Source: an uncultured Massilimicrobiota sp. (GTDB lineage Bacteria > Bacillota_I > Bacilli_A > Erysipelotrichales > Coprobacillaceae). Taken from it: a DNA stretch of 59,466 nucleotides. The notes below the pieces were generated by a model. That model saw only the letters and a program-made list of their open reading frames with translations, was not told the origin of the DNA and ran no database searches. This document shows, piece after piece, positions 7,312 through 13,779 of the stretch. Position numbers and translations under genes: made by a program. Each line of letters starts with the position of its first letter. The stretch's first letter is position 1. The stretch spans positions 1-59,466 of the forward strand of contig CALUZM010000007.1 in the NCBI GenBank assembly GCA_944325245.1, written 5' to 3'.

Positions 7312-9126
7312 TTAATTCCTAAAGATTTTTTCAGGATTTAAATTCTTCACTATAACACAGGATAGAAGACAAGAACTTAATAAAGATAATCCATAAATGA
7401 AACATAAAATCCTAATCATCTCTAACGATTGTATGTTAAGAATCCAAGATAGTAGCAATACCAATATCAAAGATAAAACCATCTTCAACAATTGATCGAT
7501 ATTTAAAATATATATAAATTCATTAAACATAACCCCATTTGCTTTAAGAATAGTTAATTCCTTTTCACGTCTTTTCAATGACCAATAACACATATAAGCA
7601 AAAATCAAAGCAAACAATATAATGGTAATGTATTTTTCCATTGTGTACATACGAATTGTGTCACTTTTCGTATTCATTAATAAATTAACATCTTGAAATG
7701 CATCATTAATATTCACATTTTCACTATAATTCTTGATATACTCTTCAACTGAAACAAGCGAGTCGATATTCTCACAAAATATCACATAGGCACTTTTTAC
7801 TGGTTGTACTCCTCCCTGTGTTGCCAAAATTTCCATATCCTCATAATTCATCAACATATAATCCAATGAACGATCGTAGGCTACATTCATTCCTATTGAT
7901 AGAATTCCACTAACTGGAATTTGTTGAATAACCTTTGTTTCATTATTAAAAATAAATTCTGATAAATGATAATCATTTTTATCATTAAGTAATTGATAAA
8001 TACTGTGATAAGAAGGATAAAGGTGTCTATCTTCCTGAATTGTTTGAAATAATTTCCCATTTAACTGATTTTCAGGATATAGAGGATAAACAGGAATTTG
8101 ACGACTATCTACTTGAACTGATAAATCATAGAAAGGATAAACCCTTTTCACTCCTAAGTGATTTTGAATACCTTCTATGAAATCTTGTGATAAAGGGGAC
8201 GCTTTATTATAAACTCCTAATTTCTGTGCTACATCATTACTTTCAATCATGATTTGAAAATCTGATAAACGACTCATCTGATAATCAATTCCAACCTGTG
8301 CCTGATCTATAGATTTTTGAATAATGAATGTCCCTAAACTTCCTAAAGTCAAAACAATAATCATAAAAATATTTATCAATCTTTCATTTTGAAAACAATG
8401 TTTTAAATAATACAAAAGAAAACGTACTTGCTGATGTTTTGACTTTTGTATGAACATTATCGGGTCATCTTGACATTCTTTTTTTAATACTATTCCTTGC
8501 TCATTCATTTCATAAATACAATCGGCGTATTCTTTAGCTATATAGCTATGACTTGCTACAATAATCGTACAATTTTCTGTTTTTAATAAGTCTTTTAATA
8601 ACTGAAAAATTTCTCTTTCATTTATTTCATCTAAAGCACTTGTCGGTTCGTCTAAAATCAAAATTTCTGGTTTTTTCAGCAAAGCACAGGCAATCGCTAA
8701 TCTTTGTTTTTCACCTCCTGATAAAGTCATAACCTTTTGATTAAAATCATGATAAAGATGCACCTTATCTAACAACGGCCTCATTGCAGCTTGCTCAAAA
8801 GGTTCACCACTTAAATAACTATAATATTTTAAACATTCAGTTACAGTCATGTTTTCAAGCAATCCATAATCCTGAAAAACATATCCAATAGAATATCTTC
8901 TTAATTTTGTCTGTTGACGACGACTAAGAGTTATGAAATCCTGTTTATGATACATATAATGATAATCTTGGTCATATGAAATCAAGCCTAATTTATATAA
9001 TAAAGTTGTTTTCCCACTTCCACTTAAACCTTGAATAAAGGTTAAATGATGTTCAGGAATCAATAAACTTTGTTTTTTTACTTTCTTTGATGTATAACGT
9101 GTCGACACATGCGTTAGTTCAATCAT
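7312..9126 (-). CDS. ABC transporter, ATPase fused to FtsX-like permease (second of pair)
   Basis: N-terminal ATPase: Walker A GLSGSGKTT (33-41), signature LSGGEKQ (135-141), Walker B ILILDE (155-160), H-loop His193. A first membrane helix near 255-275 is followed by a large extracytoplasmic region of about 240 residues and three C-terminal helices, the MacB/FtsX layout. Such proteins usually drive peptide or antibiotic efflux or envelope mechanotransmission rather than uptake. I start it at the ATG at 9126 (604 aa), with GGGAGGG upstream and ATGA overlap with the preceding ABC gene, so the two are translationally coupled and probably form a heterodimer. No terminator follows before the next promoter. 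The substrate is unknown; self-immunity or export for the small secreted protein upstream is an inference. Confidence 0.85.
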   Translation of the reverse strand: MIELTHVSTRYTSKKVKKQSLLIPEHHLTFIQGLSGSGKTTLLYKLGLISYDQDYHYMYHKQDFITLSRRQQTKLRRYSIGYVFQDYGLLENMTVTECLKYYSYLSGEPFEQAAMRPLLDKVHLYHDFNQKVMTLSGGEKQRLAIACALLKKPEILILDEPTSALDEINEREIFQLLKDLLKTENCTIIVASHSYIAKEYADCIYEMNEQGIVLKKECQDDPIMFIQKSKHQQVRFLLYYLKHCFQNERLINIFMIIVLTLGSLGTFIIQKSIDQAQVGIDYQMSRLSDFQIMIESNDVAQKLGVYNKASPLSQDFIEGIQNHLGVKRVYPFYDLSVQVDSRQIPVYPLYPENQLNGKLFQTIQEDRHLYPSYHSIYQLLNDKNDYHLSEFIFNNETKVIQQIPVSGILSIGMNVAYDRSLDYMLMNYEDMEILATQGGVQPVKSAYVIFCENIDSLVSVEEYIKNYSENVNINDAFQDVNLLMNTKSDTIRMYTMEKYITIILFALIFAYMCYWSLKRREKELTILKANGVMFNEFIYILNIDQLLKMVLSLILVLLLSWILNIQSLEMIRILCFIYGLSLLSSCLLSCVIVKNLNPEKIFRN

Positions 9127-11117
9127 CTTTTTACCCTCCCTAACACAATCATTGGTATACCTACTTCTATACATAAACTGAGTACAATACAAAAGACAAA
9201 GAATGATGGTCGAATAATAAAGACTTCATTATACATCAAAGCAAAAAATACATATGCAATAACAAACATAAAAACAATAGATAAAACCATACATATGAAA
9301 CTTTCATATAAAAAATAAATACCTAGTATTTTTTTTGCAAAAGAAACTGTAAAACCACATCTTGTAAAAAAATGAATAAAATCAACATCATCTTGTCTTT
9401 GATTATACTTAACTCCAAAAAACAACATTAACACAACAAACATAATCAAACCTGAAATCATAAAAATACTTTCATTTAATTGTTTCACAACATCTACTTT
9501 TGTATAAATATCATAATAGTCAGATGATACTTTAAATCCTTGGGCTTCAATATCTTCTTTTGCCTCATTAAAATCATATCCATCTTCAACAACAAACTGA
9601 TAGTAATTAGGATAATAAGGTTGAGCATCTTCGGGAATAGAATGCATGAGTGTCGTTTGATATTTTTCTATAACACCTAATGGACAAAATAGGTCCACAT
9701 TCATATTATTGATTGGTGCCATTTTCAAAGGATATGTAGAATCTACAATTCCTTTAATTTTCATTTTTAAAATAATTGTCTGATAATGAATTTCTTCCAT
9801 TTCATTTTCTATTGTACGATACACTGGTATCGTCACTGGAAATTCTATTTCTGTATTTTCATTGACCTCTTGGCAAATATTTTTTAAAGTTTCCTCACCT
9901 ATAAGAGTACGATCTTCAAATAAATTTCCAGTTTTTAAGTAATATAAAAGTGGTAACGAAATATAAATTCCCTCTTCATTATCTATGGTTTTCTCAACAT
10001 AATCCATTTTATATTGAAAGTTTTCATTATATGTTGCCCATCCAAATGTTCCTAGTGTCATTTCTCGACGATCTTCTATTTGACCATCTTGATATAACTT
10101 TAAATTTAAATCATCCAAATTCTCATCTAGATGTTCTGTCAAATATTCATCTAGAATAAATGGCCATGTTTTGACATGAGATAGCTTCTTAACACTTTTA
10201 ATTTCTTCACCAATAGAAGGTGGAATTGGAGTTAATTGAATATATTCACGATAGAACACTCCACCCTTATCTAATAATGCTAATTGATCTATATATTTTT
10301 GAATAACTGATTGTCCATATAAAACAGAAAAACTACATAAACCAATAGATAACGAAGTCAAACAAACCATGATGATTTTTAACAATTTTCTATGCTCAAA
10401 CATTTTATATAAATATTGAGTATAGTGTTTTGGAGAAGCTATTGATGATATTCCTTTCTTTTCTATAATTTGTGGAGAATTTATCACATATTGTGTTAAC
10501 TTCTGATTCTCAATCTGATAAACAATATCAGCTTCTTTTTTAATTAAAGCATCATGAGTAAAAATAATGACTGTATGGCCCTGATGAGCATAATCCTTTA
10601 ATAATTCTACAATTAACTGTGTATGATGTTTATCTAATGATGCCGTTGGTTCATCAAAAACAAGTATTTCAGGTTGATGAATTAAGGCTAATAAAATACT
10701 CACCCTGATTTTCTCTCCACCCGACAGCTGTTGAGGATAAAGTGAATAAGTATGCTTTATTTCTAACTGCTCTGCTATTTCATCAATATCATATCCATGA
10801 GATAACGATTGACATAATCCTATATGATCCTTTATTTTTAAATCATTAATAAATGCAGGAATCTGATCCACAATTCCCATATGTGTTAGAATAAATTCCT
10901 GTTGTTGATTCATATTTAAATCAGTTATATTTTCATTATTATAATAATATTCATAGGTTCCTGTTCTTTGAAAAGTCAACAACTCATGCAGCGTGGATTT
11001 TCCACTACCACTCTTACCTATAACTACTGTTAATTCATGATCTTGAGCACAAAAATATGCATGATTATAAACAACATGTTCATTATAATAAACACAAATA
11101 TTCTTCATTTCTAACAT
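9123..11117 (-). CDS. ABC transporter, ATPase fused to FtsX-like permease (first of pair)
   Basis: N-terminal ATPase: Walker A GKSGSGKST (34-42), Q-loop Gln85, signature LSGGEKI (131-137), Walker B ILVFDE (151-156). One membrane helix near 245-267, an extracytoplasmic domain of about 270 residues, then three helices at the C-terminus (about 540, 590 and 640). The ATG at 11117 has AGGTGAG at good spacing; a GTG at 11126 overlaps that site and is less likely. It is 664 aa. It shares architecture with the next gene but the two are clearly diverged in sequence, as expected for the two halves of a heterodimer. A hairpin with a T-run separates it from the secreted-protein gene, so its level is probably set by read-through. 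Confidence 0.85.
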   Translation of the reverse strand: MLEMKNICVYYNEHVVYNHAYFCAQDHELTVVIGKSGSGKSTLHELLTFQRTGTYEYYYNNENITDLNMNQQQEFILTHMGIVDQIPAFINDLKIKDHIGLCQSLSHGYDIDEIAEQLEIKHTYSLYPQQLSGGEKIRVSILLALIHQPEILVFDEPTASLDKHHTQLIVELLKDYAHQGHTVIIFTHDALIKKEADIVYQIENQKLTQYVINSPQIIEKKGISSIASPKHYTQYLYKMFEHRKLLKIIMVCLTSLSIGLCSFSVLYGQSVIQKYIDQLALLDKGGVFYREYIQLTPIPPSIGEEIKSVKKLSHVKTWPFILDEYLTEHLDENLDDLNLKLYQDGQIEDRREMTLGTFGWATYNENFQYKMDYVEKTIDNEEGIYISLPLLYYLKTGNLFEDRTLIGEETLKNICQEVNENTEIEFPVTIPVYRTIENEMEEIHYQTIILKMKIKGIVDSTYPLKMAPINNMNVDLFCPLGVIEKYQTTLMHSIPEDAQPYYPNYYQFVVEDGYDFNEAKEDIEAQGFKVSSDYYDIYTKVDVVKQLNESIFMISGLIMFVVLMLFFGVKYNQRQDDVDFIHFFTRCGFTVSFAKKILGIYFLYESFICMVLSIVFMFVIAYVFFALMYNEVFIIRPSFFVFCIVLSLCIEVGIPMIVLGRVKR

Positions 11118-11163
11118 TAATCTCACCTACTACCCCTAAAAATATCACGTCTAATAAATATGG

Positions 11164-11191
11164 AAAAAAGATGAATAAAATTCATCTTTTT
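11164..11191 (-). terminator. Terminator between secreted-protein gene and ABC pair
   Basis: Minus strand: AAAAAGATGAA pairs with TTCATCTTTTT around a 5-base loop and runs into T's. It starts 4 bases past the stop of the small secreted protein. Likely an attenuating terminator that lets the small protein be made in excess over the transporter. Confidence 0.7.
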
Positions 11192-11194
11192 AGG

Positions 11195-11605
11195 TTAATT
11201 GAAATCATACATCACTAAAGAAGTAGTGTATACAATTTGAGGTGGGATAGTAGCAAATTGGGCTTTTGCTTTCCAATTCACAGAAATCACCAAACCACTA
11301 GAAGCTTTGTTTACCACTGTTGCACTCACTTTTGTTGTACCAATGGACTTACTTGTAGCAGTCAATTTGTATGAATCAATGGTATATTTTCCATTAACAT
11401 ATCTAAGAGTAGCTGTACATTTCGTATTTAGAGTTCCAATTTGTTTCCCTGATGCATTTTTTACAGGAATAGCTTTAGTTATTTCCTCTTCAAAAATCTG
11501 TGCTCTTGGTTCTACAATATTTTCTGTCGATAAAGCATGAGCATTTGCACAAACACCTCCCAAAACTAACACTGCCGTCAAAAAACTAGTTAATAATTTT
11601 TTCAT
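11195..11605 (-). CDS. Small secreted protein, bacteriocin-like candidate
   Basis: 136 aa with a clear Sec signal peptide: MKKLL, a hydrophobic core to about residue 19, and A-H-A at 22-24 as the cleavage site. That leaves a mature protein of about 112 residues, rich in Thr, Ser, Val and Lys and probably all-beta, with one Cys and one Trp (VNWKAKA). I do not recognise the family. The stretch SATVVN, the later Trp and the aromatic C-terminus recall lactococcin 972-type bacteriocins, but the resemblance is short and may be chance. The ATG at 11605 has AAGGAGAA upstream; an alternative start six codons earlier lacks a site. It sits between a LytTR two-component system and a MacB-like ABC pair, the place of a regulated exported effector. 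Confidence 0.6.
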   Translation of the reverse strand: MKKLLTSFLTAVLVLGGVCANAHALSTENIVEPRAQIFEEEITKAIPVKNASGKQIGTLNTKCTATLRYVNGKYTIDSYKLTATSKSIGTTKVSATVVNKASSGLVISVNWKAKAQFATIPPQIVYTTSLVMYDFN

Positions 11606-11821: not shown

Positions 11822-13030
11822 TCACTCCCCTAATAAAGAAGTTTTGATAATAAAAGTTTTATCATCATAATCAATATCTAAAGTTCCATGATATTGATTA
11901 ACAATTCTACGAATACTTTTGAGTCCATACCCATGGTATTTTTTATCTTTTTTGGTTTTTAAAGTTTGATCAAATGATTGGTCTATATCATTTTCCACTT
12001 GAACATGTAATATTTGTTGTTCATAAACGATATTCACTTTTATCAATCCGTTTTGGGGACAATTTTCTATCGCATTATCTAGTATATTAGATAACAAATC
12101 ATTTAAAACATAATCTTGAATAGATAATTGTTGAGGAACATTAATCAAACACTCCACTCTTATATGTTTCATATCAGCATTAATGATTTTATTATTGATA
12201 ATGGTATTAATCAGTTGATTTCTTGTTTTAACTAATACAGGTATTGATGAAATAAGATTATTATGATTATTGATTAATTCTTTAATTTTCGGATAATCTT
12301 TCTGATTCAAATAATAATTAATTAATTGATAGTCATGTTTCAAATCATGTTTTGTCATCTTTAATTGTTCATATATATGAAGCAAAGCCTGTTCATTCTT
12401 TTGTTCTTGTTTTAATTTTTCATATTTTTCTTTTTTATTGTTTAAATCAAAAAGATAAAACAGGAGTATAAATACACCAAATAAACAAAATAACAGTATT
12501 CCAAACATTTTCATCAATTCAGGAGTATGAGATTTAAAAACAAGATACTCCTGTGTAAATTGTAATGACACACAATATAAACCTAATAAAACAACAGTCA
12601 AAATATAATAATTCATTTGTTGAAAAGAAAGACGGATTGTTTTTAATTTTTTCAAAAATAATAAACCAAATAATAAATAGAAAATCTTTGTATAATAGTC
12701 ATTTAATTCTACTAAAAATAATTCATCAATAAACAACAACAGTATATTCATTGTTAAGCTATAAACACTTTCCAAAATCACAACAAATAATATTTCACTT
12801 TTTCTATTATGAGTAAAGATGCATCCTAACACAAAGTTTAGAAAAATAAATATGTACGACAATGAAATACCAGAAAAATCAATGAATCCATATATTGTAA
12901 CAATACCAACATTAATCATGACCATTAAAATTCTATAAAGCCAACACATATTTTTCCTAATATCTAACAAATAAGTAATAAACCATGTCTGTAATAATGA
13001 ACTTATAATATTTAACCCTAACCATGCCAT
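11822..13030 (-). CDS. AgrC-like sensor histidine kinase
   Basis: 402 aa. Five to six hydrophobic segments fill residues 1-195, followed by a coiled linker and a phosphoacceptor region KHDLKHDYQLI (His228 or His232, the HDxxxH style of peptide-sensing GHKL kinases). The ATPase core has the N box NLLSNILDNAIEN (about 310-325) and the glycine motif GYGLKSIRRIV (about 370). It overlaps the end of the response regulator gene by 13 bases and has AGGAGT upstream, so it is translationally coupled. AgrC relatives sense secreted peptides, but no agrB/agrD-like gene is visible here, so the ligand may be another peptide or an envelope signal. The family call is firm; the signal is unknown. Confidence 0.88.
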   Translation of the reverse strand: MAWLGLNIISSLLQTWFITYLLDIRKNMCWLYRILMVMINVGIVTIYGFIDFSGISLSYIFIFLNFVLGCIFTHNRKSEILFVVILESVYSLTMNILLLFIDELFLVELNDYYTKIFYLLFGLLFLKKLKTIRLSFQQMNYYILTVVLLGLYCVSLQFTQEYLVFKSHTPELMKMFGILLFCLFGVFILLFYLFDLNNKKEKYEKLKQEQKNEQALLHIYEQLKMTKHDLKHDYQLINYYLNQKDYPKIKELINNHNNLISSIPVLVKTRNQLINTIINNKIINADMKHIRVECLINVPQQLSIQDYVLNDLLSNILDNAIENCPQNGLIKVNIVYEQQILHVQVENDIDQSFDQTLKTKKDKKYHGYGLKSIRRIVNQYHGTLDIDYDDKTFIIKTSLLGE

Positions 13031-13713
13031 ATATATTGACTCCTATGTTGCATATATCTTTGCATAAATGGTTTCTTGCTGCCACGTGTAAACGGAATGA
13101 TTATATTATACGAGAGCATTATATCCTTCTTTTCCACTTTTACTACAGAATCCAAATTAATGATTATGTGACTATTTAATTTATAGAATCTACAATGATT
13201 AAGTTGTTGATAGGTTTGTTTGAGTGTTTGATATGTTGTATAACTTTTTGTTGGAGTCAATATGCGAATTTGATTACGTGATGATTCAATATAAATAATA
13301 TCTTTCTGCTTGATAGAAACACTCATTCCATTCACAACTACAGAAATATGTTCTCCGTCTTGAAGTATTATCTTTTTATATTTATTCACAAAATGATCAT
13401 AATCTTCATCAAAATGTGATTTTCTGATAAAGAAGAATGTATTTTGTTGAAAACTTTCATAAACAAAGTGATCAACACTAGATATATAAACAATGATTGC
13501 ATGGGGATATAACTTTGATATATTCATTCCATATTCAAAGCTCTCTCCTTCCTTCAACATAACGTCAAGAAATATACATTGATATTCTTTAGTGTAAATA
13601 TCATCACAAAAAGAATCATACATATCAATTTGTATATCTTGAAATGTATGATTTAAATGTGCTTTTAATTGTTCTATAAATATATGATCATCATCTACAA
13701 TAACACACTTCAT
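13018..13713 (-). CDS. LytTR-family response regulator (AgrA-like)
   Basis: 231 aa. Receiver domain at 1-120 with acidic pocket Asp7-Asp9, phosphoacceptor Asp50 (CIFLDVML) and Lys98. LytTR DNA-binding domain at about 130-231 (KDIIYIESSRNQIRI, FYKLNSHIIINL). I start it at the ATG at 13713, preceded by AGGAGGA; the reading frame extends 16 codons upstream without a ribosome site. First gene of the unit with the kinase. A weak promoter, TATGAT with a poor -35, can be drawn near 13745. By family it should bind paired direct repeats upstream of its targets, the obvious one being the secreted-protein gene. Confidence 0.9.
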   Translation of the reverse strand: MKCVIVDDDHIFIEQLKAHLNHTFQDIQIDMYDSFCDDIYTKEYQCIFLDVMLKEGESFEYGMNISKLYPHAIIVYISSVDHFVYESFQQNTFFFIRKSHFDEDYDHFVNKYKKIILQDGEHISVVVNGMSVSIKQKDIIYIESSRNQIRILTPTKSYTTYQTLKQTYQQLNHCRFYKLNSHIIINLDSVVKVEKKDIMLSYNIIIPFTRGSKKPFMQRYMQHRSQYIWHG

Positions 13714-13779
13714 AAACAATCCTCCTAATATTCTTATTGTATCATAGTTTCCCATTATCAAAAAACAATAATTTTCATA

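Follow-up and report, generated by a model that had tools for sequence, protein, structure and literature searches.

Organization of the cassette

The window, a stretch of 59,466 nucleotides from the genome of an uncultured Massilimicrobiota sp. (G000), contains a cassette of five genes lying on the - strand in the order LytTR regulator, GHKL kinase, small gene, ABC1 and ABC2. These genes and one hairpin are listed here.

13018..13761, - strand: response regulator with a LytTR DNA-binding domain (PF04397, E 3e-12; PF00072, E 1.5e-5)
11822..13030, - strand: GHKL-type sensor histidine kinase, 402 aa (PF14501, E 1.4e-20)
11195..11605, - strand: small secreted protein gene (ORF, Shine-Dalgarno sequence GGAAAGGAG, decayed Longibaculum muris homologue at the same place)
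11165..11191, - strand: hairpin with a perfect 12-bp stem, separating the small gene from ABC1 (12-nt arms, 100% complementary)
9123..11126, - strand: ABC1, with an ATPase at the N-terminus joined to a 4-TM permease that bears a large extracellular domain (ABC_tran, E 3.8e-20)
7312..9192, - strand: ABC2, a second ATPase-permease fusion, homologous to ABC1 (ABC_tran, E 5.5e-23)

The ATG of the regulator ORF is probably internal, near 13716. ABC1 measures about 661 aa with its start at 11108, and ABC2 about 607 aa if its start lies near 9135.

The small gene runs from an ATG at 11605 to a stop at 11195 and encodes 136 aa. A TTG upstream would extend the product to 142 aa; the ATG, which the initial annotation had chosen, is favoured because GGAAAGGAG lies 6 bases 5' of it. 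When the 713 bp separating the kinase gene from ABC1 were simulated 2000 times with a first-order Markov model, an open run of at least 144 codons appeared once, and the small ORF is a real gene. The N-terminus of its product (MKKLLTSFLTAVLVLGGVCANAHA, with LS following the predicted cleavage) resembles a Sec signal peptide, by eye and by a hydropathy filter, spanning about residues 1-24. The small secreted protein of the initial annotation, with a mature part of about 112 residues, is thus borne out by the ORF, the Shine-Dalgarno sequence, the signal peptide and the simulations. Its description as rich in Thr and Ser holds mildly (S+T 22.3%); V, I, Y, F, W and T together make up 39.3%, and the pI is 9.6.

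That the protein is also rich in beta structure is likely but falls short of proof: the AF2 model of the mature protein contains three long, antiparallel-looking strands between mature residues 12 and 62, at a mean pLDDT of 59 and a pTM of 0.51, with the C-terminal third below 50 and the C-terminal half unreliable. MAFFT alignments of the small proteins were left out of structure prediction because their columns became inconsistent as the set of rows changed. A Foldseek search with this weak model returned 408 rows, none with E below 0.2 and hence 0 with E<=0.001. The top row of the second-look alignment is Zea (Lmo2686, PDB 4k15), a Listeria RNA-binding protein that is Sec-secreted, as is the small protein, with Z 6.0, rmsd 3.8 and 84 aligned residues. 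The two share 14% identity, and a Z of 6 for a model of pLDDT 59 stands at the level of unrelated folds according to the tool's own note. The likeness is probably due to chance, and we claim no kinship.

No convincing pair of LytTR binding repeats was found 5' of the small gene, and a scan for sigma-70 promoters was uninformative, since 26 were found and 29.4 are expected from shuffles. The hairpin at 11165..11191 folds at -10.3 kcal/mol (z -3.4) and was not called by the terminator scan owing to its A/T-rich stem; it is a possible attenuator or processing site, which would hold the transcript of the small gene above that of the transporter.

The permease profiles of ABC1 and ABC2 match each other (hhalign probability 99%, E 3.6e-18), so that homologous halves lie side by side. 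The AF2 model of the ABC1 permease part, built from 13 rows, has a pLDDT of 78 and a pTM of 0.62, with helices at 12-64, 316-355, 374-409 and 421-443. Foldseek matched it to LolE (E 4.9e-11) and, down to E 1e-6, to Streptococcus pneumoniae 5xu1, MacB, YtrF and BceB; all 36 rows with E<=0.001 belong to the LolE/MacB class. In the second-look alignment the Z scores fall from 14.8 to 11-12, with ties within about 1-2 and no single closest relative: LolE (Z 14.8, rmsd 7.9, 333 aligned), 5xu1 (Z 13.8, rmsd 9.9, 333 aligned), MacB (Z 13.1, rmsd 9.3, 347 aligned), YtrF (Z 12.7, rmsd 7.1, 353 aligned) and BceAB (Z 12.1, rmsd 4.9, 224 aligned). As modelled, ABC1 combines a four-TM permease, long TM1/TM2 stalks and an extracellular domain with an FtsE/LolD-like ATPase, the features that define MacB/LolCE-type (type VII) transporters.

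Several known systems resemble parts of this arrangement. MacB likewise carries its ATPase fused at the N-terminus, and LolC/LolE likewise form a pair of unequal halves. From the class of LolCDE, MacB, YtrEF and 5xu1 (type VII, mechanotransmission) the pair in the window differs in having a small secreted protein and GHKL/LytTR partners. BceRS-BceAB modules also unite a two-component system and an FtsX-like exporter in one cassette, but here the regulator is of the LytTR type, the kinase is of the GHKL type and a gene for a secreted protein is included.

Comparison with lactococcin 972

The initial annotation had suggested a relation to lactococcin 972-type bacteriocins from the short segment SATVVN, the Trp that follows it and the aromatic C-terminus. 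All three are present in the small protein, and the PDB entry of lactococcin 972 (2lgn_A) contains the identical hexapeptide SATVVN. An exact 6-mer shared with 2lgn_A was obtained in 85 of 200,000 shuffles of the small protein, and the best local alignment score between the two was equalled by 765 of 5000 shuffles. The Sec-type signal peptide found in the lactococcin 972 family is present as well, judged from the sequence and the hydropathy filter.

The relation itself did not hold up in the sequence tests. The profile search with PF09683 that had been proposed as a check gave no row at E<=10 for the small protein in Pfam, nor did TIGR01653 in NCBIfam. The PF09683 cut-off is exceeded in 6 genomes out of the 395 of the class, and the window's own genome has no match. 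Most lactococcin 972 family members of the class match one another at Z 2.8-18.7, against global shuffle Z scores of -0.8 to 1.2 for the small protein with seven clear members. L113 reaches Z 2.7 with the small protein and is an outlier that fails against several family members (Z -0.2 to 4.2). With an HMM built by us from eight family sequences and run with filters off, the small protein scores 0.3 bits, a value equalled by 76 of 200 shuffles; the family members score 55-104 bits, but the same sequences built the model. The consensus motifs of the family alignment, a GGxWxxG start and YxHxxKxH, are absent from the mature small protein, which lacks GG and His altogether and has a single Trp. 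The structural comparison speaks neither for nor against the lactococcin sandwich: 2lgn is not among the matches listed in Foldseek or in the second-look alignment, an absence that carries no weight with so weak a model. Membership in the lactococcin 972 family is not supported by sequence, SATVVN being the sole sequence evidence in its favour.

The initial annotation also pointed to the logic of the locus, as lactococcin 972 loci carry large membrane proteins and an ABC ATPase. Here the likeness in kind stands. In those loci (PF09683/TIGR01653 with a TIGR01654/DUF1430 permease and a TIGR03608 ATPase), the gene of a small Sec-secreted protein heads an operon that supplies the functions of an FtsX-like permease and an ABC ATPase, as in the window, and Lcn972 and the small protein have the hexapeptide in common; the mature part of Lcn972 is 66 aa, against about 112 aa. 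The construction of the transporter does not agree. Eight stretches around lactococcin 972 matches were read, and those of sufficient length encode, besides the bacteriocin, a permease and an ATPase as separate proteins of roughly 660-720 and 205-236 aa, respectively; L108 has a split permease ORF, and L111 a different gene order. The window, by contrast, has two LolE/MacB-type ATPase-permease fusions where those loci have a DUF1430-type permease with a separate ATPase. Two true family permeases of the class match TIGR01654 at 60 and 123 bits, below the cut-off of 189; the permease parts of ABC1 and ABC2 gave no match to it at E<=10. Profile comparison with the family permease gave 6% for ABC1 and 54% for ABC2, and distant kinship is possible.

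TIGR03608, the lactococcin 972 exporter ATPase, is the best NCBIfam row of both ATPases in the window, at 116 and 155 bits against a cut-off of 254.85, while two true family ATPases reach 260 and 264 bits. This match was rejected as a sign of a lactococcin exporter and carries little weight, since TIGR03608 is also the best row (131.7 bits) of a control, a member of an unrelated MacB-type pair.

Distribution and loss of the small gene

The ABC1 permease profile has matches in 16 of the 43 genomes of the family and in at least 8 of the 395 genomes of the class, the latter a lower bound because few candidates per genome were scored. Thirty pair loci were read; upstream sequence is lacking for L032 and limited to 321-556 bp for three more. 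Of the 29 with upstream sequence, 8 have a same-strand ORF of 117-151 aa that looks secreted, 12-267 bp ahead of the pair: the window, L031, L037, L040, L079, L080, L083 and L084. The remaining 21 pairs have no small secreted ORF within reach, which counts against reading these proteins as bacteriocins. With a limit of 300 bp, such ORFs precede 8 of 29 pairs and, among other large genes, 2 of 92 (p 1.5e-4 by Fisher's test); this count depends on one dropped match and two relabelled controls, and pair loci from the same genome are not independent. The mechanical version of the test, counting both ABC halves, gave 7/47 against 4/94 (p 0.042), where the filter had left two ABC1 genes among the four controls. 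The dropped match is a 113-aa ORF at 292 bp in L041 that passes the mechanical filter; it does not look secreted and is not conserved in the neighbour L033. Decayed or truncated candidates for the small gene are found in L030, L082 and L085.

In the list of eight small proteins, in which the window is counted once and L084 omitted, seven are basic, the exception being that of L083 (pI 4.4), and S+T ranges over 22-36%. The proteins of L031 and L037 are clearly related (Z 7.1, hhalign E 2e-5), and the others show no clear sequence relation. Shuffle Z scores against the small protein of the window reach 2.7 for L037, 2.1 for L040, 2.5 for L084 and 2.7 for L113 and are leads only, 16 partners having been tried. 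When 196 genomes of the order were searched with a profile of L031 and L037, no third protein rose above chance (the row at E 0.004 contains a stop). Judged by these comparisons, the position before the ABC pair is conserved and the sequence of the small protein mostly is not.

Among the 43 genomes of the family, the sole significant match of the small protein of the window is a fragment in Longibaculum muris, the 10 other rows having E 0.07-0.8. Searches for relatives gave 174 pattern matches in genome contigs and 29 in viral contigs, 0 of them confirmed in either set, one match at E 10 in plasmids that is due to chance, and two at E 0.2-0.3 in phages, none credited. PHROGs and PADLOC yielded nothing credible; PADLOC rows for a homing endonuclease and Csx19 (E 0.003-0.04) were taken as chance, as was PsbO at E 0.4 in a sequence search of the PDB.

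Two further arrangements were noted. In G017 (L084:1468-6382, - strand), a small secreted protein with an aromatic C-terminus is encoded between two near-identical ABC1-type genes. In G003 (L075:409-858, - strand), a secreted beta- and Thr-rich protein is encoded on the strand opposite to an ABC pair, beside PadR-type regulators.

Within the genus, the window was compared with four other Massilimicrobiota genomes (G001-G004), of which G003 is M. timonensis. The cassette is missing from the same chromosomal site in three of them (G001, G002 and G004), where the gene of a P-type ATPase directly adjoins that of a 297-aa protein. A close GHKL kinase occurs within the genus only where the ABC pair is present (G003, and not G001, G002 or G004), and from this and the empty sites the cassette is taken to be one unit. 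G002 retains a scar at L123:1479-1505 (- strand), an in-frame ...FLNPEKVLRN* directly before the 297-aa gene and the shared downstream sequence, which is identical in 24 of 27 bases to the end of ABC2 in the window (...NLNPEKIFRN*) and suggests loss of the cassette rather than late gain.

Where the cassette is kept, the small gene may be missing. M. timonensis has the regulator, kinase, ABC1 (71% identical to that of the window) and ABC2 (75%), but the 73 bp that separate its kinase from ABC1 leave no room for the small gene. In a second contrast within one genus, G032 (L040:1820-8432) and G033 (L039:1591-7675) both carry a kinase, a regulator and an ABC pair, and the small secreted gene is found at that place only in G032. 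Contig 34 of L. muris contains decayed fragments of the small gene with a broken frame (L030:6640-7100, - strand) immediately ahead of the ABC1 counterpart. The rest of the cassette can do without the small gene, given the absence of that gene from M. timonensis and G033 and its fragments in L. muris. The L. muris fragment is 45% identical to the small protein over 47 aa (E 9e-7), while the ABC1 proteins of the two are 38% identical; the small protein is therefore not the more divergent in this pair, the only one that allows the comparison, which counts against fast change.

Proposed function and alternatives

We propose that the small protein is an orphan, fast-changing, bacteriocin-like secreted protein accompanied by a LolCE/MacB-type exporter for self-protection, a prediction that could fairly go either way. 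The protein would leave the cell by the Sec pathway and fold outside as a small, basic, beta-rich protein, and would most likely attack the envelope of competing Gram-positive bacteria. ABC1 and ABC2 would form a heterodimer of the LolCE/MacB type that lifts the small protein, or its complex with the target, off the membrane of the producer and so protects it. The GHKL/LytTR system would sense the effect on the envelope and turn the cassette on. LolCE pulls substrates out of the outer leaflet, and BceAB protects against lipid-II-cycle antibiotics by freeing lipid-II-cycle targets; by analogy, the LolE/MacB/YtrF fold class, BceAB included, appears suited to either task. Behaviour as a bacteriocin with its immunity is suggested by the loss of the small gene while sensor and exporter stay, and by the turnover of sequence at a fixed place before the exporter; retention of the ABC pair without the secreted protein fits a function in immunity. 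Whatever its family, the small protein may work in the manner of lactococcin 972 loci.

The fixed place directly before ABC1 would also suit an extracellular partner of the transporter, an acceptor or adaptor in the manner of LolA with LolCE, rather than an effector. LolE and MacB, the nearest structural neighbours of ABC1, each work with a partner protein. We consider this unlikely, as transporter and kinase persist without the small gene in M. timonensis and G033, and mutually unrelated sequences at that place would be odd for a subunit that docks on a conserved transporter. The location of the gene between kinase and ABC1 might instead point to a secreted signal, a protein pheromone read by the GHKL/LytTR system that controls the exporter, and such systems often respond to secreted peptides. 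This reading seems just as improbable: M. timonensis keeps kinase and regulator in the absence of the small gene, several pairs that do have the small gene (L079 and L080, for example) lack GHKL/LytTR genes in the stretch read, and a folded protein of 112 residues would be unusual as a pheromone.

Very unlikely, in our estimate, is a strongly diverged but true member of the lactococcin 972 family, with its beta-sandwich and binding of lipid II. The SATVVN shared with 2lgn, the Trp and aromatic end that come after it, the Sec secretion and the adjacent ABC genes speak for it, as does the strong divergence of the family itself: mediterrocin is 18% identical to Lcn972 yet similar in predicted structure (PMC12345188). 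However, profiles and shuffles give no signal, the family motifs are missing, and no TIGR01654-type permease adjoins the small gene, whereas the readable loci of true members carry a permease and a separate ATPase.

If the small protein is indeed an effector with the ABC pair as its immunity, the locus may, more tentatively, represent an undescribed class in Erysipelotrichia of the Coprobacillaceae type (Massilimicrobiota, Longibaculum and their kin), in which a LolC/LolE-like pair of fusions serves as a constant immunity chassis for changing and mutually unrelated small antibacterial proteins, Sec-secreted, beta-rich and each easily lost. No paper on this cassette was found by title or abstract within a partial coverage of the literature. 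Such proteins would add to the secreted protein antibiotics of gut Firmicutes a family that is unmodified and escapes profile searches, since its effectors diverge too far to be recognized and the exporter alone stays constant; the exporter would in turn offer a possible handle for finding them. The class would also bear on the role of the permease and ATPase in lactococcin 972 loci, described as experimentally unverified in the 2024 streptococcin B paper (PMC11796350).

A locus of the lactococcin 972 type occurs in the same family as well. In G010 (L106:1879-8291, - strand), a lactococcin-972-like gene that scores below the TIGR01653 cut-off is accompanied by a TIGR01654-like permease and a TIGR03608 ATPase. 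An IS element lies between this gene and a two-component system, and its regulation may resemble that of the cassette in the window.
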